Positions 4,093-23,041 of a stretch of 38,356 nucleotides of DNA are shown here, in pieces (position 1 is the first letter of the stretch; each line of letters opens with the position of its first letter). A program made the translations under genes and the position numbers. The notes beneath the pieces were generated by a model. The model saw nothing but the letters and a program-made list of their open reading frames with translations, did no database searches and had not been told where the DNA came from. Origin of the DNA: Opitutaceae bacterium (lineage in GTDB: Bacteria; Verrucomicrobiota; Verrucomicrobiia; Opitutales; Opitutaceae); NCBI GenBank assembly GCA_016793535.1, contig JAEUHA010000393.1, positions 1 through 38,356 on the forward strand, written 5' to 3'.

Positions 4093-4641
4093 ATGGAATC
4101 CACTTCACCGACTGCCCTGGCCGACCTTGTGCGGCGGGCTCAAAAGGGCGACGAGGCCGCCCAGCGGGAACTTGTGGTCAGTTACCAGCACCGGGTGGCG
4201 GGCTTCGTTTACGCCATGACCGGCCGAAGCGATTACGTCGAAGATCTGTCGCAGCAGGTGTTCATCAAGATGATCCGCGCGATCGATCGCCTGCAGGCTC
4301 CGGCGCAGTTCGAGTCGTGGCTCTTCCGGCTCGCGCGCAACACCTGCATCGACCAGCTGCGGCGGCAGAAGCTGCGCCGGATCTTCCTTCCGTTCGGCGA
4401 GGAGCACGAAAACATTCCGGAACCGCCGGGAGCGGTGGATTCGGAGGAGCTCGACGCCCTGCAGCATGCCCTGGCCCAACTGCGCCCGCAGGACCGCGCG
4501 CTGCTTGCCTTGGTGCAGGAAGGGCGTAGTCATGCGGAAATCGCTGAAACGCTCGAAACCAGTGTCGCCGCGGTGAAGGCTCGCCTCCATCGCGCCCGGG
4601 AACACCTTCGCGAGCATTACCAACCTCCCCATGAAACCTGA
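4093..4641 (+). CDS. RNA polymerase sigma factor, ECF subfamily
   Basis: The protein is 182 residues, usual for extracytoplasmic-function sigma factors. Region 2 spans about residues 8-80: LVRRAQKGDEAAQRELV, then YVEDLSQQVFIKMIRAIDRL and FESWLFRLARNTCIDQLRRQ, which cover core binding and -10 recognition. Region 4 spans about 125-175: LQHALAQLRPQDRALLALV followed by the helix-turn-helix HAEIAETLETSVAAVKARLHRARE for -35 recognition. The stop overlaps the start of the next gene by 11 bp, which fits a sigma/anti-sigma pair. Such factors are normally held by the neighbouring membrane protein and released by an envelope or oxidative signal. Confidence 0.93.
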   Translation: MESTSPTALADLVRRAQKGDEAAQRELVVSYQHRVAGFVYAMTGRSDYVEDLSQQVFIKMIRAIDRLQAPAQFESWLFRLARNTCIDQLRRQKLRRIFLPFGEEHENIPEPPGAVDSEELDALQHALAQLRPQDRALLALVQEGRSHAEIAETLETSVAAVKARLHRAREHLREHYQPPHET

Positions 4642-4999
4642 AGAACACGCCTGGCAGGAACTCCAGCGGCGCGCCTCGGCGCAGCTCCGCGGTGGATTTG
4701 CGGATCGCGTGGTGCGCACCGCGCGAGGCCCCCAGGAGGATTCGTGGCGCGCCCTCTTCTCCGTCGGCGCACGCCAGCTGCGGCCGGGTTTTGCCGAACG
4801 GGTGCTGCGGGCCGCGCGCGCCGCCGCGGAAATGCCGTCCCTGGCCAGCCAATTCGCGCTCAGTGCCGCCACCGCAGCGGTGTGTCTCGGCGCCGTGCTG
4901 TTCGTCCACCATCAGACGGTCGAGGCAGCGGATGAACGGAACCTCGCGGAATGGCAGGCGATCGTGGCGGTCGCCGAGGACGATGCGGCGGGCCTATGA
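4631..4999 (+). CDS. Putative anti-sigma membrane protein with duplicated motif
   Basis: The protein is 122 residues, starting 11 bp inside the ECF sigma gene. The N-terminal cytoplasmic part contains a clear internal duplication: QLRGGFADRVVRTARG (about residues 18-33) and QLRPGFAERVLRAARA (about 51-66). A membrane segment (FALSAATAAVCLGAVLFV, about residues 77-95) leaves a short acidic C-terminal tail outside. Overlap with the sigma gene, size and topology suggest an anti-sigma factor, but I see no zinc-binding HxxxCxxC motif or other named anti-sigma domain. The duplicated helix might be the sigma-binding part. It ends in ATGA, overlapping the next start. Confidence 0.75.
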   Translation: MKPEEHAWQELQRRASAQLRGGFADRVVRTARGPQEDSWRALFSVGARQLRPGFAERVLRAARAAAEMPSLASQFALSAATAAVCLGAVLFVHHQTVEAADERNLAEWQAIVAVAEDDAAGL

Positions 5000-5625
5000 C
5001 GCAGCGGGTCTTCGTTGCCCTTCTGACGGTCGGGGTGTTTCTCGCCGGCTATTTTGCGCGGGTCTGGACCGACCGGCGTGAGGCGGTGCCGGCTGCTCCG
5101 GCAGCGCTCGCCAAGGAATATGTTCGCGCCGACACGAAGTCGACGAACAAGACGAAGTCCGACAGCCAACTCGACCGCGCCAAGCTGGTCGCGGAGATCC
5201 AGAAGCTCCGGCCGCACATCGACGCTTACAGCACCCAGCTGGATGAGATTCAGGCCGAATTTGATCGCGAGTTCCTGCACTTGCTCACGCTCCCGCAGCG
5301 GGACAAGTTTGCCGCCAATCAGAAGAAACGGGCGGAGCGCGACGCGAAGCGCCAGGCGGATCGCACGCCGCTCTCCGACGAGGATATCCAGCGGGCGAAG
5401 GACCGGCCGCTCACTTCGATCTACTGGTATGTCGTCGTCACTCCGCATCTCGAGTGGATGACAAAGGAGTACGGACTCGATGCGAATCAGCAGACGCAGG
5501 TTCGGGCCCTGCTTGCCCTGCGCCGCAACAAGTTCATCGCCCTGGTCGATTCCACCCAGCATCCGTCGATTCGGCTGAGCAAGCTGGCGCCGTTGATCGA
5601 GCGGATGGGAACGCCGGCGAAATAG
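4996..5625 (+). CDS. Membrane-anchored helical envelope protein of unknown function
   Basis: The protein is 209 residues from the ATG overlapping the previous stop (ATGA at 4996-4999); the frame opens earlier, but this start gives an N-terminal anchor or uncleaved signal (VFVALLTVGVFLAGYFARVW). The rest is highly charged and helical: KLVAEIQKLRPHIDAYSTQL, FDREFLHLLTLPQRDKFAAN, a Lys/Arg/Asp-rich linker and a C-terminal helical domain (YGLDANQQTQVRALLALRRN). The 'LTLPQRDKF' and 'LDANQQTQVRALL' segments recall heavy-metal-sensor and Spy/CpxP-type periplasmic proteins. This is a resemblance only, with no diagnostic LTxxQ pair assured. As third gene of the sigma operon it may be a sensing or target protein on the outer face of the membrane. 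Confidence 0.75.
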   Translation: MTQRVFVALLTVGVFLAGYFARVWTDRREAVPAAPAALAKEYVRADTKSTNKTKSDSQLDRAKLVAEIQKLRPHIDAYSTQLDEIQAEFDREFLHLLTLPQRDKFAANQKKRAERDAKRQADRTPLSDEDIQRAKDRPLTSIYWYVVVTPHLEWMTKEYGLDANQQTQVRALLALRRNKFIALVDSTQHPSIRLSKLAPLIERMGTPAK

Positions 5626-5677: not shown

Positions 5678-7057
5678 ATGGCCAAATCTCCGCTCGCTGG
5701 ACTCAGTGTGCTGCTCCTCGACGACGAAGTCGTCCTGCGCAAGCGGCTCGCGGGTTACCTCGAGCGGGAAGGAGCGGAAGTGACGGCCGTCGCCAGCCTG
5801 GCCGCGGCGCGGCAGGTGCTCGAATCGATGTCGTTCGAGGCGGCCGTCATCGACGTCAACCTGCCGGATGGGCGGGGGACCGATTTATTGCGGGACAAAG
5901 TTTTCCCTCCCACCACCAACGTGATCGTGATGACGGCGGGTGGAAACGTCGCCGGCGCCGTGGAAGCCCTCCGCGCGGGCGCGGCCGACTACCTCGTCAA
6001 ACCCTTCGATCCCGAGGAACTGCCGCTGCGGATCGCACAGGCGCGGCGGAGCCGGCAGGCGCGTCGGGCGGATGAGTTTCGCCGCGGCCAGGACTCGGGC
6101 CTCGTTTTCGGCGAGAGCCTGGCCGGCGTCCGCGAGCAACTCGCCAAGATCACCGCCGCCGACCGGCGGCTGAGCGGCTCGCTGCCGCCGATCCTGATCG
6201 AGGGCGAGACCGGCACGGGCAAGACGGCGATCGCGCGCTGGATCCATCGTCACGGTCCGAGAGCCGAGGAACCGCTCATCGAGCTCAACTGCTCGGCACT
6301 GCCGGAGGCGCTGGCCGAAGCGGAACTTTTCGGCCACGAGCGGGGTGCGTTCACGGACGCCAAGACGGCCCGCATCGGGCTGATGGAGGCGGCCGACGGC
6401 GGGACGCTCTTCCTCGACGAACTGCCGAGCCTCTCGCTCCCGCTCCAGGCCAAGCTGCTCACCGCCATCGAGGACCACAGCCTGCGCCGCGTCGGCGCCT
6501 CACGTCATATTCCGGTCGATGCCCGCGTCATCGCGGCCACCAATGCCGACCTCGGCGCCCTCGTTGCCGTGGGCAAGTTCCGCGAAGACCTGCTGCATCG
6601 CCTGGACCTGTTTCGCGTGCGCCTGCCCCCGCTCCGGGACCGCGGCGGCGACATCATCGTCCTCGCCGAGGAACTGCTAATCCGCGTGTGCCGACGCTAC
6701 GGGCAAAAGGTCCCGGTGATTCCTCCCGACGGAAAAAGCCGGCTGCTGGCGCATCGCTGGCCCGGCAATGTGCGCGAGCTGGCGCACGAGATCGAGCGGG
6801 CCGTGGTGTTCGGGGGCGAGCAGGGACTGGCGTTTCCTCACCTCGGCACCGCCGACGGCGACGCAGCGGCGCGCTCGTGGATGCGGCGGGACTTCGTGTT
6901 TCCCGAAACCGGGTTTTCTCTGGAGTCGGCGATCGACGAGATCGTCGCCCGCGCGATGAAACAGGCGGGTGGAAACGTCTCCGCCGCCGCTCGTCTGCTC
7001 GGCGTGTCCCGCGATGTGGTTCGTTACCGGCTCAAAGGGGGCCGATCCACCGAGTAG
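5678..7057 (+). CDS. Sigma-54-dependent response regulator, NtrC family
   Basis: The protein is 459 residues with the full three-part layout. The receiver domain (1-120) has acidic pair Asp15/Asp16, phosphoacceptor Asp59 (VIDVNLPDG) and Lys108 (LVKPF). The AAA+ domain (about 143-370) has Walker A GETGTGKT (Lys182), the sigma-54-contacting loop GAFTDA (223-228), Walker B GGTLFLDEL and the arginine-finger segment FREDLLHRL. The C-terminal Fis-type helix-turn-helix is GGNVSAAARLLGVSRDVVRYRL. The GAFTDA form (GAFTGA in most family members) keeps the loop but has Asp in place of the second Gly, as in several natural NtrC-like activators. Cognate kinase candidates are at 1909-3105 and 8924-10300. 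A sigma-54-type promoter lies 126 bp after its stop. Confidence 0.95.
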   Translation: MAKSPLAGLSVLLLDDEVVLRKRLAGYLEREGAEVTAVASLAAARQVLESMSFEAAVIDVNLPDGRGTDLLRDKVFPPTTNVIVMTAGGNVAGAVEALRAGAADYLVKPFDPEELPLRIAQARRSRQARRADEFRRGQDSGLVFGESLAGVREQLAKITAADRRLSGSLPPILIEGETGTGKTAIARWIHRHGPRAEEPLIELNCSALPEALAEAELFGHERGAFTDAKTARIGLMEAADGGTLFLDELPSLSLPLQAKLLTAIEDHSLRRVGASRHIPVDARVIAATNADLGALVAVGKFREDLLHRLDLFRVRLPPLRDRGGDIIVLAEELLIRVCRRYGQKVPVIPPDGKSRLLAHRWPGNVRELAHEIERAVVFGGEQGLAFPHLGTADGDAAARSWMRRDFVFPETGFSLESAIDEIVARAMKQAGGNVSAAARLLGVSRDVVRYRLKGGRSTE

Positions 7058-7161
7058 GCTGGGGAATTGTGCGCGGGCTTCAGCCAGGGATGGGATTTTT
7101 TCCCCACTTTACGCAGCGAACGCGGACGATACCTTTCTGGCTTAAACGTTGAAAACAAAGG

Positions 7162-7176
7162 GCAAACGCGATTTGC
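7162..7176. promoter_or_regulatory. Inverted repeat upstream of sigma-54-type promoter
   Basis: GCAAA-CGCGA-TTTGC, a 15-bp element with 5-bp perfect arms, lies 7 bp upstream of the -24 box at 7183. A dyad here could be a binding site for the Fis-type domain of the regulator encoded just upstream. NtrC-type sites are usually farther (about 80-150 bp) from the promoter, so another factor may use it. Confidence 0.4.
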
Positions 7177-7182
7177 TGAGCT

Positions 7183-7198
7183 TGGCATGCGAGGTGCA
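7183..7198 (+). promoter_or_regulatory. Candidate sigma-54 (-24/-12) promoter
   Basis: TTGGCATG-CGAG-GTGCA matches the sigma-54 consensus YTGGCACG-N4-TTGCW at all but two positions and has the invariant GG (7184-7185) and GC (7196-7197) exactly 10 bp apart. Transcription would start near 7209, only about 9 bases before the ATG at 7218. This would leave the AAGGAG at 7199-7204 outside the transcript, so translation would depend on a near-leaderless mRNA. It follows directly on a sigma-54 activator gene. Confidence 0.6.
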
Positions 7199-7217
7199 AA
7201 GGAGAATCATCCTCCGC

Positions 7218-7580
7218 ATGTCGCGTCCTTCCATCGCTTCCCGACTCCTTGCCACGGCGCTTTGTGCCCTGGCTTTGGGCATGGGAACGGCGCAAGGCGC
7301 GGAAAGCAGCACGGCCGCCCGGGAGCGGGCGAAGAAAGGGGCCACTACGGCCGCTGATCTCAAGAAACTGCTCGATGAGGCTGGCAAGCAGCGCGACGCG
7401 CTGATCGCCGATTACGAAGCCCTCCGGAAAGAGCTCGTGGCAGCGACCGAGGAGCAGAAGCAGGCGATCCGGCAGAAGATGGAGGAACGCAAAAAGGCGT
7501 TCGAGGAAATGACCATCGCCCTGCACAAGCAGATCCGCGACGAGCAGCGCAAACAGCGGGCCGGCGCGGCGAAACGGTAA
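7218..7580 (+). CDS. Small exported coiled-coil protein
   Basis: The protein is 120 residues. A clear signal peptide (SRLLATALCALALGMGTAQGAES, cleavage probably after AQG) is followed by an almost entirely charged helix (LKKLLDEAGKQRDALIADYE through EERKKAFEEMTIALHKQI) with heptad-like spacing, so it is predicted to be a periplasmic coiled coil. ATG 7218 is chosen because it starts the signal peptide; the frame is open 23 codons further upstream. It is a single-gene unit, bounded by the -24/-12 promoter and the terminator at 7628-7657. I do not recognise a family. Its isolation next to the NtrC-type regulator makes it the best candidate target of that regulator. Confidence 0.8.
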   Translation: MSRPSIASRLLATALCALALGMGTAQGAESSTAARERAKKGATTAADLKKLLDEAGKQRDALIADYEALRKELVAATEEQKQAIRQKMEERKKAFEEMTIALHKQIRDEQRKQRAGAAKR

Positions 7581-7627
7581 ATCCAGATTTTTGGCGTAAT
7601 TGTTATTTCGGCGTAATGTCAGTCAAA

Positions 7628-7657
7628 GGGCGGTCGCTTCGGCGGCCGCCCTTTTTT
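7628..7657 (+). terminator. Rho-independent terminator with cUUCGg tetraloop
   Basis: GGGCGGTCGC (7628-7637), loop TTCG, GCGGCCGCCC (7642-7651): a 10-bp stem with one G-T pair, closed by the very stable C(UUCG)G tetraloop and followed by six T (7652-7657), with AAA before it. It ends the unit of the 120-aa coiled-coil protein and separates it from the outer-membrane gene at 7739. Confidence 0.95.
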
Positions 7658-7738: not shown

Positions 7739-8908
7739 GTGATTTCCCTGCCACGTTTTGTCCTGTCGTCCGCCGCCTTCCTGGCCGCGGCGGGTGGAAC
7801 AGTTCAGGCGCAGGGTGACCCGGCCGCGTCCGCGCCTGCGTCGAAATCGGCGGACCTCGCCGCCCTGCTCGCGTCGTTGCCCCAATGGAGCGTGTCGACG
7901 TCGGTGCGGGCCGGTTACGGCTACAAGGACAACCTGCTGTTGAGCTATGCGGACGAAGAGCGCAGCGCGTTCGTGCGGAGCGGGTTGGAGCTGCTGGTGC
8001 TGCGGGTGCCGCAGGGGAAATTCGAGTTCTCGGGTTTCGCCGAGACGGAAGGGACACATTACTTCTCGGCCCGCACGTCCGATCAGGAGTCGAAGGTGTG
8101 GCTGCAGGTCGAGCCTGCGTACCGCCTCAGTGACGCGGTGAAGGTGGCGCTGCCGCTCACGGGTTTCTATTACGACCAGGTTTTCGATGTCTCGGATACC
8201 GACGTCGAACGCCGCGTGGCCGAGCTCAAGGTCAGGGGTCTCATGGCCGGGCCGACCGTGCGTTGGGACTGGCATCGGGCCTGGTGGGTCGAGGCCCAGG
8301 GCAGCGGACAACGGAAGCGCTTCGACGACGGGGCCAACGACGGCCGGTTGGGCGAAGGCGCCGTGCGCGTGGGCTGGCACCCCGGCGGGCGTTTCGAGGC
8401 GCGCGTGATGGGTGCGCAGCGGTGGCGGACGTTTGATCGCCGCGCCCAGTACTCGGCGTCAGGGCGCGAACTGCCGGACACTGCGCTCAAGATTGCGGAA
8501 CGCGAATGGGAGGCCCGGGCGGGCGTGACGTGGGACGAAGCCGGACACTGGCAAACCAGCACGCGCCTCAGCCTCCTGCAGTACCGGGACAACGGTTCGG
8601 GCTATTTCAATTACCGCGAACAAAAGGTGGGCCAGGAAGTCGAGTGGCGCACCGAGGCGTGGCTGGTTCGACTCGGCGGCACTGCGAGCCGGCTCGATTT
8701 CGATGTTCAGAAAGCCGGCATCAGTATCGACCCGCCGGCACGCCTGAAAGATGAGTTCACGCTGGACGTGCACGTGGAACGGCGGCTCTCCGTGCGCTGG
8801 ACGCTGTACGGCTCCTACTTCTGGGAACGCTCCCGTTCCAACGATGCGTATGCATCCTACCGGGTGAACGAAGGCTTGCTTGGACTGCGGTGGAGTTGGG
8901 AAAGATAG
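7739..8908 (+). CDS. Probable outer-membrane beta-barrel protein
   Basis: The protein is 389 residues from a GTG start. The signal peptide FVLSSAAFLAAAGGTVQAQ is followed by an Ala/Ser-rich linker. From about residue 49 alternating strands (WSVSTSVRAGYGYKDNLLLS, VWLQVEPAYRLSDAVKVALP, WRTEAWLVRLGGTASRLDF, WTLYGSYFWERSRSN) run to the C-terminus LLGLRWSWER. Dense aromatic and alternating polar/nonpolar residues, the 'GYKDNLLLS' entry strand and no cytoplasmic motifs fit an outer-membrane barrel of 14-18 strands. The last residue is Arg rather than Phe, so the usual BAM signal is imperfect. It lies 15 bp ahead of a membrane histidine kinase, which suggests co-transcription and perhaps a sensing role. 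Confidence 0.75.
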   Translation: MISLPRFVLSSAAFLAAAGGTVQAQGDPAASAPASKSADLAALLASLPQWSVSTSVRAGYGYKDNLLLSYADEERSAFVRSGLELLVLRVPQGKFEFSGFAETEGTHYFSARTSDQESKVWLQVEPAYRLSDAVKVALPLTGFYYDQVFDVSDTDVERRVAELKVRGLMAGPTVRWDWHRAWWVEAQGSGQRKRFDDGANDGRLGEGAVRVGWHPGGRFEARVMGAQRWRTFDRRAQYSASGRELPDTALKIAEREWEARAGVTWDEAGHWQTSTRLSLLQYRDNGSGYFNYREQKVGQEVEWRTEAWLVRLGGTASRLDFDVQKAGISIDPPARLKDEFTLDVHVERRLSVRWTLYGSYFWERSRSNDAYASYRVNEGLLGLRWSWER

Positions 8909-8923
8909 TCCCACCCGCCTGCA

Positions 8924-10300
8924 ATGCCCGCCCCCGCCGTCCCGCCGTCATCCGGCCGCATCACCCGCCTGAGCGTGCTCGGAGTGACGGTGCTGGTGTT
9001 CGGCGCGGTGGTGGCGGCGATGACGCAGCAATTGCGCGACGGCCTGCGTGAACAGATCCTGCGGCGCGAGGCCGAGATGCTCGCCGCGATCGCCTCGATG
9101 CAGCTCGACGACGCGGCCGAGGACGTGCCGGCGGCGAAGTTCATCGCCGTGCTCAAGACCCAGAAGCTGGCGGGAGTTTCCGGGTTGCGCATCTACGACG
9201 CCGAACGCCGGCTCAATGGCACCTATCTGCTGCCCCCCGCGGCGTCACCACCGCCGGACACGCTCTGGCAGCGCGTGGCGGCCGGAGAGGCGATCGGACG
9301 GCTGTTTCGCGATTTGTCCGGCGATCCCGACGCCGAGATCATTCCGACGTCGGCGGCCGACGCCGCGTTCGAAGCCTGGGTGCCGCTGCGCCGGAATCGC
9401 TCCTCGGCCTTCATCGGCGCCGCCCAGTTTTGGGTCGAGGCCGACCAGTTGCTCGTGGAGCTCGGCGCTCACGACCGCCGACTCTGGACGCAGGCGGCGA
9501 TCGCCTGGTTTGCCGGCTCGCTCGTCATCGTCTCGACGTTGGGCTGGGCGTTCCGCCGGCTGGATGCGGCGAACCGTGCCCTCCGCGCGCGCAGCGAGGA
9601 CCTGCTCCGCGCCAATCGCGAGCTGGTGCTGGCGGCCAAGACGTCGGCCCTCGGTACGGTCGCGGCGCACCTGATGCATGAAATCAAGAACCCCCTGGCG
9701 GGCCTCGAGTCGATCGTGGCGGCGCAAGCCGAGGCGGCCGGGCGCACCGAGCAGCGCGATGGGGAACTGGCCGCGGCTTCCGAATTGACGCGGCGTCTGC
9801 GCACGATGGTCAACGACGTGGTGGCCGTCCTGCGCGACGAGCAGTCGGGCGTGGAGTATGAGCTTTCGAGCGCGGACATCGTGGAAGTCGTGCTCGCGAA
9901 AGTCCGGGCCGACGCCGCGACCCGTGGCGTCAGGATCGAGACCGTCGCCCCGCCCGAAATCACCTTGTCCGGGCGGCGCGCAAACCTCGTCACGCTCGTG
10001 TTGCGCAATCTCGTGCAGAACGCGCTGGAGGCCACGCCTGCGGGCGGAACCGTGCGCCTCCGCGGCGGCCGGGATCCGGGTGGCGGCATCGAATTCCTCG
10101 TCGAGGATACCGGCGGTGGTCTGCCCGCGGCGGTGCGCGAACGGCTCTTTCAACCCTGCACGAGCACGAAGGTCGGCGGCAGTGGCCTTGGGCTCGCGCT
10201 CAGCCAGCGCCTCGCGAGCCAGGCCGGCGGACGGATCGAACTGGTGCGAAGCGAGCCGGGCGTGACGTGCTTCCGTCTTGTGTTGGAGCCGGAGGCATGA
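8924..10300 (+). CDS. Membrane sensor histidine kinase
   Basis: The protein is 458 residues. Transmembrane helix 1 is at about 14-34 (LSVLGVTVLVFGAVVAAM), a periplasmic sensor of about 155 residues follows (KLAGVSGLRIYDAERRLNG...), and transmembrane helix 2 is at about 190-210 (AAIAWFAGSLVIVSTLGWAF). A short coiled linker leads to the phosphoacceptor helix HLMHEIKNPLAGLE (His252). The ATPase domain shows LRNLVQNALEATPAGG (N box), EDTGGGLP (G1) and GGSGLGLALSQRLA (G2). It lies 1.9 kb downstream of the only response regulator here and is a second candidate partner for it, since no other regulator is adjacent. The sensed signal is presumably in the periplasm. Confidence 0.92.
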   Translation: MPAPAVPPSSGRITRLSVLGVTVLVFGAVVAAMTQQLRDGLREQILRREAEMLAAIASMQLDDAAEDVPAAKFIAVLKTQKLAGVSGLRIYDAERRLNGTYLLPPAASPPPDTLWQRVAAGEAIGRLFRDLSGDPDAEIIPTSAADAAFEAWVPLRRNRSSAFIGAAQFWVEADQLLVELGAHDRRLWTQAAIAWFAGSLVIVSTLGWAFRRLDAANRALRARSEDLLRANRELVLAAKTSALGTVAAHLMHEIKNPLAGLESIVAAQAEAAGRTEQRDGELAAASELTRRLRTMVNDVVAVLRDEQSGVEYELSSADIVEVVLAKVRADAATRGVRIETVAPPEITLSGRRANLVTLVLRNLVQNALEATPAGGTVRLRGGRDPGGGIEFLVEDTGGGLPAAVRERLFQPCTSTKVGGSGLGLALSQRLASQAGGRIELVRSEPGVTCFRLVLEPEA

Positions 10301-10381
10301 TTCGAGCGCAGCCTGCAATTGATTCGCTCCATTCTCCGGGCGTTTGCCGCAGACGGAACCCTCCGTGTGCTCGTTAGGGTG

Positions 10382-12358
10382 ATGGCCGGACGCTGGCTCG
10401 CCGCCGGTCTCTTGCTCGTCATGGTCGAGGCGCGCGCCCAGGACGGAACGCGGCAATGGGCCCTCAACGTCGGCGGTGCCGGCGGCGGGTATGTTTCGTA
10501 TTCGTCGCCGGCTCTCAGCCCCGACGGCACCACGATCTACATCGGGGTCATTCGCGGCTCCGGCGGCCGCATCATCGCCGTCACGCGCGAGGGAACGGTC
10601 AAGTGGGTGCGGGACCGCACCGCATTCGTGGACGCGTCTCCGGCGGTCGCCGCCGACGGCACGGTCTACATCGGCTGCGGCGACGGCCAGCTCTATGCCC
10701 TCAACCCGCTCGACGGCAGCACGAGGTGGGCCTACTCCGCCGGCACGTTCATCACCAGTTCGCCCGCGATCGGGCCCGACGGCACCGTTTACTTCGGTGC
10801 GGCGGATGGGCGCCTCCACGCCGTGACGCCGGCGGGAGCGGCGCGCTGGACCTTCGCCGCGGGTGACATCATCGACTCCTCGCCCGCGGTTGCCGCGGAC
10901 GGCACGATCTACGTGGGTTCCTACGACCGGTACCTCTACGCGATCACGCCCGAGGGCACGGAGCGCTGGCGGTTCGCGACCGGCGGCCGGGTGTTTTCCT
11001 CCCCCGCGCTCGGCGCGGATGGCACGATCTACGTGGGGTCGGCCGACCAGCGGCTCTATGCGATCGCCCCTGACGGCACCCGGCGGTGGGATTATTTCAC
11101 GAACGGCGACATCCAGTCGTCGCCCGCGCTCGGCGCGGACGGCACCGTGTACTTCGCGGCGGACGTGAGCTTCTACGCGCTGCGACCGGGAGACGGGGAG
11201 GAACGTTTGCGCTGGCGCACCGGGATCAACACGGCGTCCGCGTCGACCGCGGCGGTGCGGGCGGACGGGACGATCATCTTCGGCGCCGATGACGGCATCG
11301 TGCGTGCTTTGAATCCGGATACGGGTTCGGTCCGCTGGGTGTTCGACACCCGCACGGGAGTCGGCAACCTGATCGAGTCTTCGCCGACGGTGGCGGCCGA
11401 TGGCGCGATCTACATCGGTTCGCTCGACGGTTTCCTCTACAAGATCAACGGCAACGGCTCGCCGCTTTCGTCCTACTCGAGCTGGCCCTCGTTCCGGCGC
11501 GATCACCGGCGCACCGGCCGGGCCGCGCCGGCGCGGAGTCCGGCGGCGCGGCTCGCGAACATCGCCACGCGCGCGCTCGCCGGCGGGAACAACAACCTCG
11601 TCGCCGGCTTCGTGGTGCAGGGGCTGACGGAGCGCACCTACATGGTGCGGGCGGTGGGGCCGGGGCTCGCGCCGTTGGGCATCGCCGGCTACATGACCGA
11701 CCCGCGGCTCGATGTGTACTCGGGCCCCGCGGTCCTGCAGTCGAACGACAACTGGCGCCTCTCCGACGAAGTCTCGAATTTCTCGATCGTCGACACGGCG
11801 GCGGGCGTGGGAGCGTTTCCGCTGCAGCCCGGAAGCAAGGACGCCGCGATCGTGCGGGCGCTGCCACCGGGCTCCTTTACTGCGCACGTGGGCAGCAGCG
11901 ATGGTCAGGGCGGAGTCGCCCTGGTTGAGGTGTACGATGCGCGGGGTGGCGACACTTCCGGCCGGATCATCAACCTTTCCACCCGCGGCTACGTCGGCAC
12001 CGGCCAGGATATCCTCATCGCCGGCGTCGTCGTGGGCGGCAGCGGCAACCTGCGCCTTCTGGTTCGAGGCATCGGTCCCAGTCTGGCCCAGTTTGGCGTG
12101 CCGGGAGTCCTGGGGCGGCCACGTCTCGAACTTTTCCGCGGACAAGTCCCGCTCGGGGTGAACACGGGCTGGAGTGACAACGGTGTCGGCGCCGACCTCA
12201 CCGCGGCGGCGGCGGCGGTGGCGGCGTTTCCGCTCGCACTCGGCAGCGCGGACGCCGCGCTCGTCTTCGAAGCCCAGCCCGGAGAATACACCGTGCAGAT
12301 TTCCGGCGTCGGTGGAACGACCGGCGAAGCCATGGTGGAAGTCTATTTGCTGCCTTGA
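10382..12358 (+). CDS. Secreted PQQ-type beta-propeller protein with GPG-VEVYD double domain
   Basis: The protein is 658 residues. A signal peptide (WLAAGLLLVMVEARAQ) fixes the start at ATG 10382, 21 codons inside a longer frame. Residues about 22-360 hold eight repeats of the pattern SSPA(L/V)xxDGTIYxGSxDxxLYAI..G..RW, an outer-membrane-assembly/PQQ-like propeller. The W-containing blade ends are present, but no PQQ-dehydrogenase catalytic motifs, so it is probably a binding scaffold. After a proline/arginine linker come two about 120-residue domains, each running from 'RAVGPGLAPLGI' or 'RGIGPSLAQFGV' through a DPRLxxY/LF segment to 'GGVALVEVYDA' or 'TGEAMVEVYLLP'. The same pair ends the unrelated protein at 20019-22823, so it may be a cell-surface or sorting module. 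Confidence 0.85.
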   Translation: MAGRWLAAGLLLVMVEARAQDGTRQWALNVGGAGGGYVSYSSPALSPDGTTIYIGVIRGSGGRIIAVTREGTVKWVRDRTAFVDASPAVAADGTVYIGCGDGQLYALNPLDGSTRWAYSAGTFITSSPAIGPDGTVYFGAADGRLHAVTPAGAARWTFAAGDIIDSSPAVAADGTIYVGSYDRYLYAITPEGTERWRFATGGRVFSSPALGADGTIYVGSADQRLYAIAPDGTRRWDYFTNGDIQSSPALGADGTVYFAADVSFYALRPGDGEERLRWRTGINTASASTAAVRADGTIIFGADDGIVRALNPDTGSVRWVFDTRTGVGNLIESSPTVAADGAIYIGSLDGFLYKINGNGSPLSSYSSWPSFRRDHRRTGRAAPARSPAARLANIATRALAGGNNNLVAGFVVQGLTERTYMVRAVGPGLAPLGIAGYMTDPRLDVYSGPAVLQSNDNWRLSDEVSNFSIVDTAAGVGAFPLQPGSKDAAIVRALPPGSFTAHVGSSDGQGGVALVEVYDARGGDTSGRIINLSTRGYVGTGQDILIAGVVVGGSGNLRLLVRGIGPSLAQFGVPGVLGRPRLELFRGQVPLGVNTGWSDNGVGADLTAAAAAVAAFPLALGSADAALVFEAQPGEYTVQISGVGGTTGEAMVEVYLLP

Positions 12359-20018: not shown

Positions 20019-22823
20019 TCACGGCACTTCGTAGATCTCCACCAGCGCCTCGCCGGTGGCGGTGCCGCTGCCGGCGGTGATTTGCATCGTGTAGCTGCCC
20101 GGGTCGAGCAGCGCGAGGGTCGAGGCATCGGCCGAACCGCCGTTGAGCGGAAACGCGCCGACAAACTCGCGCGCCTGCAGCATCTCGGTCACGAAGTCGG
20201 CGCTGTTCCAGTCGTTGTTCACGAGGACCGAGCGCTGGTTGCCGTCGAAGATCTCGAGCTGCGGATCCGCGATCGTGTTCGACACGCCGAAGGCCGCGAG
20301 CTGCGGACCGATGCCGCGGGTGAGCAGCGTGCGCTTGCCCTGACCGGCCAGGTTGAGGCCGAGGATCAGCGTGCTGTCACCGGCACCGGTGGGGCCGCGG
20401 ACCGACACGTTGGTGAACTTGCTGGCCCCGGTGACGTTGCCGGCGTCGTACACCTCGAAGAGCACCACGCCGCCCTGGCCGTTGTTGCTCGAGACCTGGA
20501 TGGTGTAGCCCTTGTTGGCGTCGAGTTCGATCACCGCGGCGGCGTCGAGGCTGTTGGCGGGGAGGCTGAAGGCGCCGACGGATGCGAACACCGGGGCGAT
20601 GGCGGCGCTCCAGTTGTTGTTCTCGGCGATCTTGGTCTGGCCGTCGTACACCTCGAACTTCGGGTCCGGCATCGTGCCGCCGACGCCGAGGGCGGCGATG
20701 CCGGGGCCGATGGCGCGGATGAGCACGCGTTTCTTGCCGCTGCCCGAGATGAAGAAGGCCGGGATGACGGTCTCGCTGCCGCCGATGGCGATGCGGCCCG
20801 AAAGGTTGCTGAGCCGCGAGGCGTTGGGATTGAGCGTCACGGTCGCGGCGCTGGAGGTGACCGTGGAGCCGCCGCCGGTGATGCGGACGCTGTACTGGCC
20901 GGCGTCCGCGGCGTTGACGTTCTGGCGGAGCAGGATCGGGCCGTTCTCGCCGGCGAGGATGGCGCCGTTGCGCAGCCACTGGTAGGTCATGCCCGTGCCG
21001 ACGGCGGAGGTCGCGAGGGCGAAGGTGCCGCCCGGCGAGACGATCTTGTCGAAGGGCTGGAGCACGATCTGCGGCGCGGTGGCCGTGGCGGGGACGGTGA
21101 GCGAACCGGCGGTGAAGGTCTGCGTGCCGCCCGGGCTCGTGACCCGCACCGTGTAGGTGCCGGCGGCCGCGGCGGTGACCGTGTTGAGCACGTAGGGATT
21201 CGCGGTGGCGCCGGCGATGGCCACGCCGTTCAGGAACCACTGGTAGGTGAACGGACCCGTGCCGGTGATCGAGATCGGCAGCACGAAGCGTCCGCCCGGA
21301 ATCACATTGAGGCTGGCGGGAATGTAGCCGGCGGGCAGGGAAGGCGCGACCGCGGTGCCGCCCGCGAAGGCGGTGCCGGTGGAGCCGGCGAACGAATAAC
21401 TGCCGCCCCACGAACCCCAGGACGCGGACGTCACGCCGTTGCGGGTGGAGCTGGGATAACTGGCTTGGCCGGGCAGGATCGTGACCGTGACGGTCTTGGT
21501 TTCGCCGACCGCGATCACGCCGGCGTGCACGGCGGCGCGCGCGACGGTCGAATCGTCGGTGTAGACGTCAGTGCCCCAGACCGCACCGGAACTGGAACCG
21601 GTGAGCGTGAATTCAAACGACTGGCCGACGCGGTTGCGGTAGCCGGTCAGGTTGACGGGAGCGGCGATGACGTTCGGGGGCAGCACGGCCACCGTGTTGA
21701 CGCCGGACGCCGCGGTGCCGACCGAGCCGCCGGAGCTGAGGGTGGTGACTTCCGCGGCGGTGAGGGCGCGATTGTAGATGCGCACTTCGTCGAGGTCACC
21801 CTGGAAGAGGTCGAGACCGTTGTCGGAGCCGGCGATCATCATCATCGCGGAGCCGAACGACGTGAGGGCGCGGCCGGTGTTCACGGTCGAGTCGAGCTGG
21901 CCATCACGGTAGATGCGCAGCGTGCCGGCTTCGAACGTCATGGTGACGTGGGTCCACACGTTGTTGTCGATCCGCCCGGTGCTGTTCTGCTGCTGGGCGA
22001 TCTGCGTGTTGGCGAGAAACGCGACGCGGCGCGACGCGGTCAGGCCGTCGAGGAACATGCCGTAGTAGTGCGCGGACTGGCCCGGAAAGCCGATCGCGAC
22101 GAGCCGGGGGTTCCAGTTGCCCGGACCCGTCGGGCGGACGAACGCGGCGATCGTCATCGCCGCCGTGCTGAACGTGTTGTTCACGAGCGCGCGCAGGCGT
22201 ACGCCGTTCGTGCGGAGCGCGCCAGCGCCGGCGCGACCGTCGACGCGTGTGACCGTGCCGCCGACGGGAGACAGCGTGAACCCGCGACCCGAGTCGTCGC
22301 GCAGGAGATTGGCCGCGTCATTGAACGAGTAATACGCCAGCAGTTCGCCGCCGGTCGCACCACCGCCGCCGCCGCCACCGCCACCACCCCCACCGCCGCC
22401 CCCGCCGCCGCCACCCCCGGAGGAGGTGAAGGACGAACTCGGGTTCAGGCGGAACTGGGTCGTGCCGTTGCCGAGCAGGTCGCCGTAGGCGGAACTCAGC
22501 TGGTTGTTGGCGATGGTCGCGGTCCGAATGCCGAGTGCGGCGAAGCCGGCCGATCCCGTGTTGAACGTGACCGCGCCCGAGGCCGAGACGGTGCCGGTCA
22601 GGCCCGAGACGTTGATCGTGCCATCCGCGGAGACCGTCGCGATGTAGGCGCCGGCGCCCGACTCGATCGTCCCGACCACCGGTACGGTCACGCGGGTGTT
22701 GATGGACCCGATGTACGTCCCGGCAAACTGGGCCTGGGCGTGCAAATCGGGGCGGACGCAGAGTGAAACGGCGCACACGGCACCGGCGGTGAAGAGACTT
22801 CGGATTCGGGAGTAAGCGTGCAT
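20019..22823 (-). CDS. Large secreted LamG / Ig-like protein with polyglycine hinge
   Basis: The protein is 934 residues from MHAYSRIRSL, with a signal peptide ending near HAQAQ; the frame runs 31 codons further upstream. Residues about 25-135 are a beta-rich domain (FAGTYIGSINTRVTVPVVG, then TGTVSASGAVTF). Next is an uninterrupted run of 20 glycines (bases 22359-22418), then a LamG/concanavalin-like domain (ELLAYYSFNDAANLLRDDSG to GDLDEVRIYNRALTAAEV). Two immunoglobulin-like domains follow, marked by FTYQWFLNGVAIAGA and MTYQWLRNGAILAG with AGTYTVRV and AGQYSVRI. The end is the double GPG...VEVYD domain shared with the propeller protein. It is probably an adhesin or glycan-binding surface protein. 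Confidence 0.88.
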   Translation of the reverse strand: MHAYSRIRSLFTAGAVCAVSLCVRPDLHAQAQFAGTYIGSINTRVTVPVVGTIESGAGAYIATVSADGTINVSGLTGTVSASGAVTFNTGSAGFAALGIRTATIANNQLSSAYGDLLGNGTTQFRLNPSSSFTSSGGGGGGGGGGGGGGGGGGGGATGGELLAYYSFNDAANLLRDDSGRGFTLSPVGGTVTRVDGRAGAGALRTNGVRLRALVNNTFSTAAMTIAAFVRPTGPGNWNPRLVAIGFPGQSAHYYGMFLDGLTASRRVAFLANTQIAQQQNSTGRIDNNVWTHVTMTFEAGTLRIYRDGQLDSTVNTGRALTSFGSAMMMIAGSDNGLDLFQGDLDEVRIYNRALTAAEVTTLSSGGSVGTAASGVNTVAVLPPNVIAAPVNLTGYRNRVGQSFEFTLTGSSSGAVWGTDVYTDDSTVARAAVHAGVIAVGETKTVTVTILPGQASYPSSTRNGVTSASWGSWGGSYSFAGSTGTAFAGGTAVAPSLPAGYIPASLNVIPGGRFVLPISITGTGPFTYQWFLNGVAIAGATANPYVLNTVTAAAAGTYTVRVTSPGGTQTFTAGSLTVPATATAPQIVLQPFDKIVSPGGTFALATSAVGTGMTYQWLRNGAILAGENGPILLRQNVNAADAGQYSVRITGGGSTVTSSAATVTLNPNASRLSNLSGRIAIGGSETVIPAFFISGSGKKRVLIRAIGPGIAALGVGGTMPDPKFEVYDGQTKIAENNNWSAAIAPVFASVGAFSLPANSLDAAAVIELDANKGYTIQVSSNNGQGGVVLFEVYDAGNVTGASKFTNVSVRGPTGAGDSTLILGLNLAGQGKRTLLTRGIGPQLAAFGVSNTIADPQLEIFDGNQRSVLVNNDWNSADFVTEMLQAREFVGAFPLNGGSADASTLALLDPGSYTMQITAGSGTATGEALVEIYEVP

Positions 22824-22880
22824 GAGGCTGAAGCGAAAGGTTTGACGGGTGAGTCTAGCGGTTTCCCATCGATCTGAGGA

Positions 22881-22896
22881 TACGCATAGATGCGTA
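22881..22896. promoter_or_regulatory. Palindromic operator-like site upstream of the LamG/Ig gene
   Basis: TACGCAT-AG-ATGCGTA, a perfect 7-bp inverted repeat with a 2-bp spacer, lies 58 bp upstream of the start codon at 22823. A related partial motif, TACGTAATTTATGCG, is at 22929-22943. The position and symmetry suggest a dimeric regulator site; the regulator is unknown. The remaining gap sequence (22824-23101, 278 bp) also holds a terminator-like stem at 23042-23061. Confidence 0.45.
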
Positions 22897-23041
22897 GAAC
22901 ACCCCGGTCCCACCACAGGTGAACGCCCTACGTAATTTATGCGGCGCAGGTTCCGCGGCGCCCAACTGTCACCGCGCGCGTCCGCGCCGGGTTATGGTCG
23001 AAAGGTTCGGCCCGCGATTCATTGCCTTCGCCACGGTCGAC

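Follow-up and report, generated by a model that had tools for sequence, protein, structure and literature searches.

A putative two-component sigma-54 circuit conserved in Opitutaceae, with a small exported product and a short predicted leader

ZraP is a helical hairpin, and the zraP arrangement is divergent. In the enterobacterial ZraPSR system, a small periplasmic protein is under sigma-54 control and the regulator has a very small regulon, according to passages of PMC7657598. For the Opitutia, predicted sigma-54 regulons list motility genes and CXXC-pair proteins as targets (excerpts of PMC12316311). Within the phylum, sigma-54 circuits have mostly been predicted one gene at a time. A search of the literature on GAFTDA, leaderless sigma-54 messages, Verrucomicrobia, Opitutia and PrsKR gave no recognised description of the module considered here.

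The module lies in a window of 38,356 nucleotides (the whole stretch of DNA that was analysed), which makes up a single contig in an assembly of 6.6 Mb from the Opitutaceae, a family with members in water and soil. It would represent a complete, testable sigma-54 circuit in which a stretch of 2 kb takes in the regulator, a pair of enhancer sites, the promoter, the one product and the terminator, with a kinase and an outer-membrane barrel alongside. It appears to work most like ZraPSR, yet its proteins fall short of the Zra family models. The best explanation overall, and a probable one, is a self-contained two-component sigma-54 switch; taken separately, the regulatory circuit is highly probable and the ZraP-like role of the small protein rather doubtful.

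The gene block and its regulator

The response regulator (5678..7057, plus strand) consists of a receiver (PF00072), an AAA+ sigma-54 domain (PF00158) and a Fis-type HTH (PF02954), and these three domains, together with a tandem upstream enhancer, place it among the NtrC-type enhancer-binding proteins. The original prediction termed it the only sigma-54 activator here, which holds for the window; ten further matches in the genome run through the AAA+ part. The genome also carries rpoN, as a partial match to PF04552 (C-terminal domain or fragment) that is over the cut-off.

Three further genes of the block are also on the plus strand. An outer-membrane beta-barrel (7739..8908; AlphaFold2 pLDDT 85) matches PDB porin-type barrels. 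It is followed by a membrane histidine kinase at 8924..10300 (Pfam HATPase_c over cut-off, HisKA just below), the presumed partner of the regulator, and by an exported beta-propeller protein at 10319..12358 (Pfam Beta-prop_ACSF4 and PQQ_2). A search of 95 genomes, the window's own included, found the small exported protein that is encoded between regulator and barrel in 26. Regulator orthologues are 61-82% identical in all 25 fetched regions, each of which has the kinase and the propeller, and regulator, barrel, kinase and propeller are adjacent and collinear in every one; the small gene was found by tblastn in 23 of these regions and by a more sensitive search in the other two.

The regulator is also present in 12 distant regions, one of which (G059) is among the 26 as well. 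The strict promoter described below occurs in nine of the 12, a promoter with one mismatch plus tandem palindromes in two, and no such promoter in L145. At the distant loci the first product is again exported and mostly helical-looking, and often longer. Regulator, barrel, kinase and propeller are side by side in distant copies too, and the arrangement appears to be maintained through a large part of the order. A long class-wide DNA pattern, which was too strict, was matched in one of 188 genomes, at the same module, and a search of plasmids gave nothing but matches below 60% identity.

Two other parts of the window can be mentioned. Just 5' of the regulator, at 4093-5625, genes for an ECF sigma factor and for two proteins of no assigned function are conserved in 14 of the 25 regions. 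On the minus strand, at 20019-22916, the list of open reading frames includes a long predicted protein in which some twenty glycines follow one another.

Is the loop of the regulator that of an ordinary activator? It reads GAFTDA, not GAFTGA, in all 25 readable orthologues; six of the seven paralogues in the same genome read GAFTGA or GSFTGA, and the seventh gave no script match. DVU2106 of Desulfovibrio has GAFTDA and assigned target operons, and passages of PMC4641369 count GAFTDA as a permitted variant. GAFTDA looks like an ordinary loop variant, because it is compatible with activity in the Desulfovibrio list and is found in 21 of 71 outside relatives of the regulator. VfmH offers a contrary hint, as with GAFTDA it failed to pull down sigma-54 (part of PMC10714721).

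Promoter and upstream sites

The sigma-54 -24/-12 promoter TGGCATGCGAGGTGCA is at 7183-7198 on the plus strand, with GG at 7184-7185, N10 and GC at 7196-7197. A GG-N10-GC promoter had been noted after the regulator and is present there; its location downstream of the regulator stop holds, and the distance of 126 bp is corrected to a measured gap of 125 bp from the end of the stop at 7057. The strict form, TGGCAY-N6-TGCA, has a single match in the window, both strands counted. Transcription is predicted to start at 7209 (plus strand), 12 bp past the -12 C (C7197).

Might the motif be a chance match? The looser TGGCAY-N6-TGCW has 27 matches in the genome vs 84 for a reversed control, so that single matches mean little. 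The motif, however, is kept at every orthologous locus while the spacers are poorly conserved, and chance has next to no probability. The strict promoter is directly 5' of the small gene at 25 of the 26 orthologous loci; the remaining locus, in G046, has two copies in tandem, of which the second is the matched gene, and there the promoter and one palindrome come before the first copy. The motif is thus conserved upstream of the orthologues at all 26 loci, the check proposed with the original prediction. Elsewhere in the 86,130 bases of the loci there is one strict promoter on the same strand and none on the opposite one, and among 71 less related regulators outside the group, which served as a control, five are followed by such a promoter at a distance of up to 320 bp. 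Pairwise identity of the promoter 16-mers averages 76% vs 35% for the two flanking spacers, which indicates selection, not recent descent. The -24/-12 observation is confirmed as real at the sequence level.

Two palindromic sites of the TGGGGAAT type are centred near -141 and -110. In the window these are the distal enhancer half TGGGGAATTGTGCGCG (7060..7075, plus strand; centre -141), an imperfect palindrome, and the proximal enhancer palindrome TGGGATTTTTTCCCCA (7091..7106, plus strand; centre -110). All 25 loci have sites of the types TGGGGAATAnTCC and TGGG...CCCA between the last codons of the regulator and the promoter. Relative to the start their centres, each placed at the best match in a range of a few bases, are at -140 to -143 and at -109 to -112, and their spacing is 30-32 bp. 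A score of at least 10 of 14, reached at 23 of 59,324 background positions, is found for the distal site in 22 loci and for the proximal site in 15, the latter being weak (7-9 of 14) in 10; none of the 25 loci lacks a site with such a score. The regulator stop codon is part of the distal site in many relatives, or the site sits in the last codons of the regulator, and the 3' end of the regulator gene would there carry part of its own presumed binding site; in the window it starts 3 bp past the stop. The palindrome pair, which the original prediction did not pick out, is likely the enhancer of the regulator.

A dyad close to the promoter, GCAAA-N5-TTTGC, had also been singled out originally. 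It exists, at 7162-7176, but is not conserved as an operator: in the remaining 24 orthologues whose promoter could be aligned, just 2-4 of its 5 arm pairs are kept, and because of this it is judged to be a chance occurrence. The tandem palindrome further upstream, not the dyad, is supported as the putative operator.

Between the palindromes and the promoter is an A+T-rich conserved element, TTAAACGTTGAAAACAAA (7142..7159, plus strand), at -67, which is a possible DNA-bending site. Its best match is at -67/-68 in 18 of 25 loci, by a pattern drawn from the same alignment. The IHF consensus has a mean best score of 7.24 vs 6.72 for shuffles, which is barely higher.

The small exported protein and its message

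The 120-aa exported protein (7218..7580, plus strand) has a signal peptide followed by two long helices, which AlphaFold2 predicts to form a hairpin (helices 45-75 and 78-118, turn ATEEQ, mean pLDDT 76). No Pfam family is over cut-off for the protein, and a PDB fold search with the model gave weak, generic matches and none at E <=0.001; ZraP is among the weak ones at E 2.3, with the ZraP entry 3lay listed. A profile search of PDB sequences gave one match, at E 0.11, which was disregarded. A chaperone role finds no supporting Pfam, NCBIfam or PDB match for this protein. L097 (G046) and L144 (G077) show either a tandem duplication of the small gene or a pair of -24/-12 sites in the stretch from regulator to barrel.

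Where would the message end? A strong terminator was expected after the small protein, and an intrinsic terminator is found at 7625-7657 (plus strand; stem -24.3 kcal/mol); a terminator-like hairpin plus T-run is kept at all 26 loci, 25-45 nt past the small-gene stop. Rfam gave zero matches within the window. It is conceivable, though somewhat unlikely, that the promoter drives one long operon of small protein, barrel, kinase and propeller, in which the hairpin would attenuate in part and the small gene would be the first cistron of an autoregulated loop. The collinearity and conservation of all four genes would fit such an operon, but the strong hairpin after the small gene at every locus argues against it.

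The predicted leader of this message was counted from the predicted transcription start to the first in-frame start codon at or after it. In the window it runs from 7209 to the ATG at 7218 and is 9 nt, in line with the approximately 9 bases first predicted. Short leaders are conserved in orthologues: by this measure, which favours them, they are 1-14 nt at 23 of 25 loci, and 41 and 45 nt at two. The start codon is sometimes GTG, at +2 or +3. A further ATG comes slightly later at L014, L022 and L032, still at 12 nt or less, and at the other loci later start codons would cut the signal peptide. A Shine-Dalgarno match of at least 4 bases before the start is missing at 18 of the 25 loci. Leaders are mostly 23-58 nt in the distant copies, which come from other families and genera or are second copies in two genus genomes; the exceptions are one of 6 nt and G059 with 12 nt, and the short leader would thus be a derived shift.

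An independent gene with an unambiguous start, flhB, bears on the same question. It has a conserved -24/-12-like element scoring 13-15 of 16 and a predicted leader of 5-9 nt at all 11 genus loci (L149-L159). If the near-leaderless message is real, it would link transcription gated by an enhancer with leaderless translation. Tentatively, and with something short of an even chance, sigma-54 promoters in this Opitutaceae branch may feed directly into leaderless or near-leaderless translation, coupling enhancer-gated transcription to SD-free initiation. Could a longer read-through transcript be translated instead, with AGGAG at 7200-7204 as the ribosome site, a real motif and a minor sigma-54 output? 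AGGAG is 13 nt before the ATG and upstream of the predicted start, as such a reading would have it, but the 18 loci that have no Shine-Dalgarno match of this length make it quite improbable.

The McsA-like gene (L173-L202), tried as a third test of short leaders, gave a mixed answer. Several genus loci of this gene keep GCACTTGCCAG...TGTGGCAT without the -12 part, a combination that may be another promoter type partly mimicking -24/-12 in part of the genus. The gene is left uncounted because such a promoter type may act there.

The proposed circuit and known systems

Comparison of sequences establishes that promoter, tandem palindromes, terminator and gene block are conserved. How might these parts work together? 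Phosphorylation, binding, looping and the start site are what we infer. The kinase (8924-10300), as putative partner, would phosphorylate the regulator (5678-7057), which would assemble at 7060-7106 on both palindromes; a loop would form in the DNA and the AAA+ ring would open RNA polymerase-sigma-54 at 7183-7198. The output would be a single-gene message of ~450 nt with a leader of ~9 nt, ended by the terminator at 7625-7657 and encoding the small exported helical-hairpin protein. The product might be plentiful in the periplasm and serve there as a chaperone or feedback subunit, protecting the barrel and holding back the kinase in the manner of ZraP towards ZraSR. Conservation gives good support to a putative circuit of known type, whose product is unexplained and whose predicted leader is unusual.

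Does the regulator have a single dedicated target, as the original prediction proposed? A strict tandem-enhancer pattern was searched for in 57 genomes, and in the seven genus genomes with a match it is found at this locus only, which agrees with the proposal within the reach of a pattern that would miss looser or single-site targets. Three other family/order genomes, without the module, have one match each. The window's own palindrome pair misses the strict pattern, and a related pattern has two matches in its own genome vs three for the control; as this is no better than the control, support for a single target comes from the relatives.

One might also think of a circuit of the PEP-CTERM type (PrsK/PrsR) with surface or exopolysaccharide proteins under its control, as PrsR and PrsK models match the regulator and the kinase and two of 26 barrel members match EpsL (TIGR03014; best E 4.3e-8); PrsR targets, too, have an enhancer and a -24/-12 element in the portions of PMC1569441 that describe them. 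The matches are, however, far below the family cut-offs (TIGR02915, TIGR02916), with 288 vs 502.6 for the regulator and 94 vs 300 for the kinase, and the genome's own PrsK is elsewhere (G000:C510:533-2596, 397 bits, over the family cut-off). In those portions of PMC1569441, moreover, start codons lie on average 71 nt, and never less than 23 nt, from the promoter motif. Such a circuit is very improbable here.

How, then, does the self-contained switch compare with what has been described? The predicted Opitutia regulons come from the same class of bacteria, but neither the module nor leader lengths are mentioned in the excerpts of PMC12316311. PrsK/PrsR shares an NtrC-type regulator, enhancer and -24/-12 element and exported targets (parts of PMC1569441 and PMC9850573), yet the proteins of the module are below the family cut-offs and a true PrsK is present elsewhere in the genome. 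With respect to Zra, the small protein has no match to ZraP/LTxxQ families among the matches listed (one listing being the best 25 of 117), and the ZraS and ZraR equivalog cut-offs are not reached (99 vs 479 and 260 vs 760 bits). The target here is downstream of the regulator, not divergent, and there are extra barrel and propeller genes. The likeness to ZraPSR is in the combination of a histidine kinase, an NtrC-type regulator and a sigma-54-controlled small periplasmic protein, as outlined in passages of PMC7657598.
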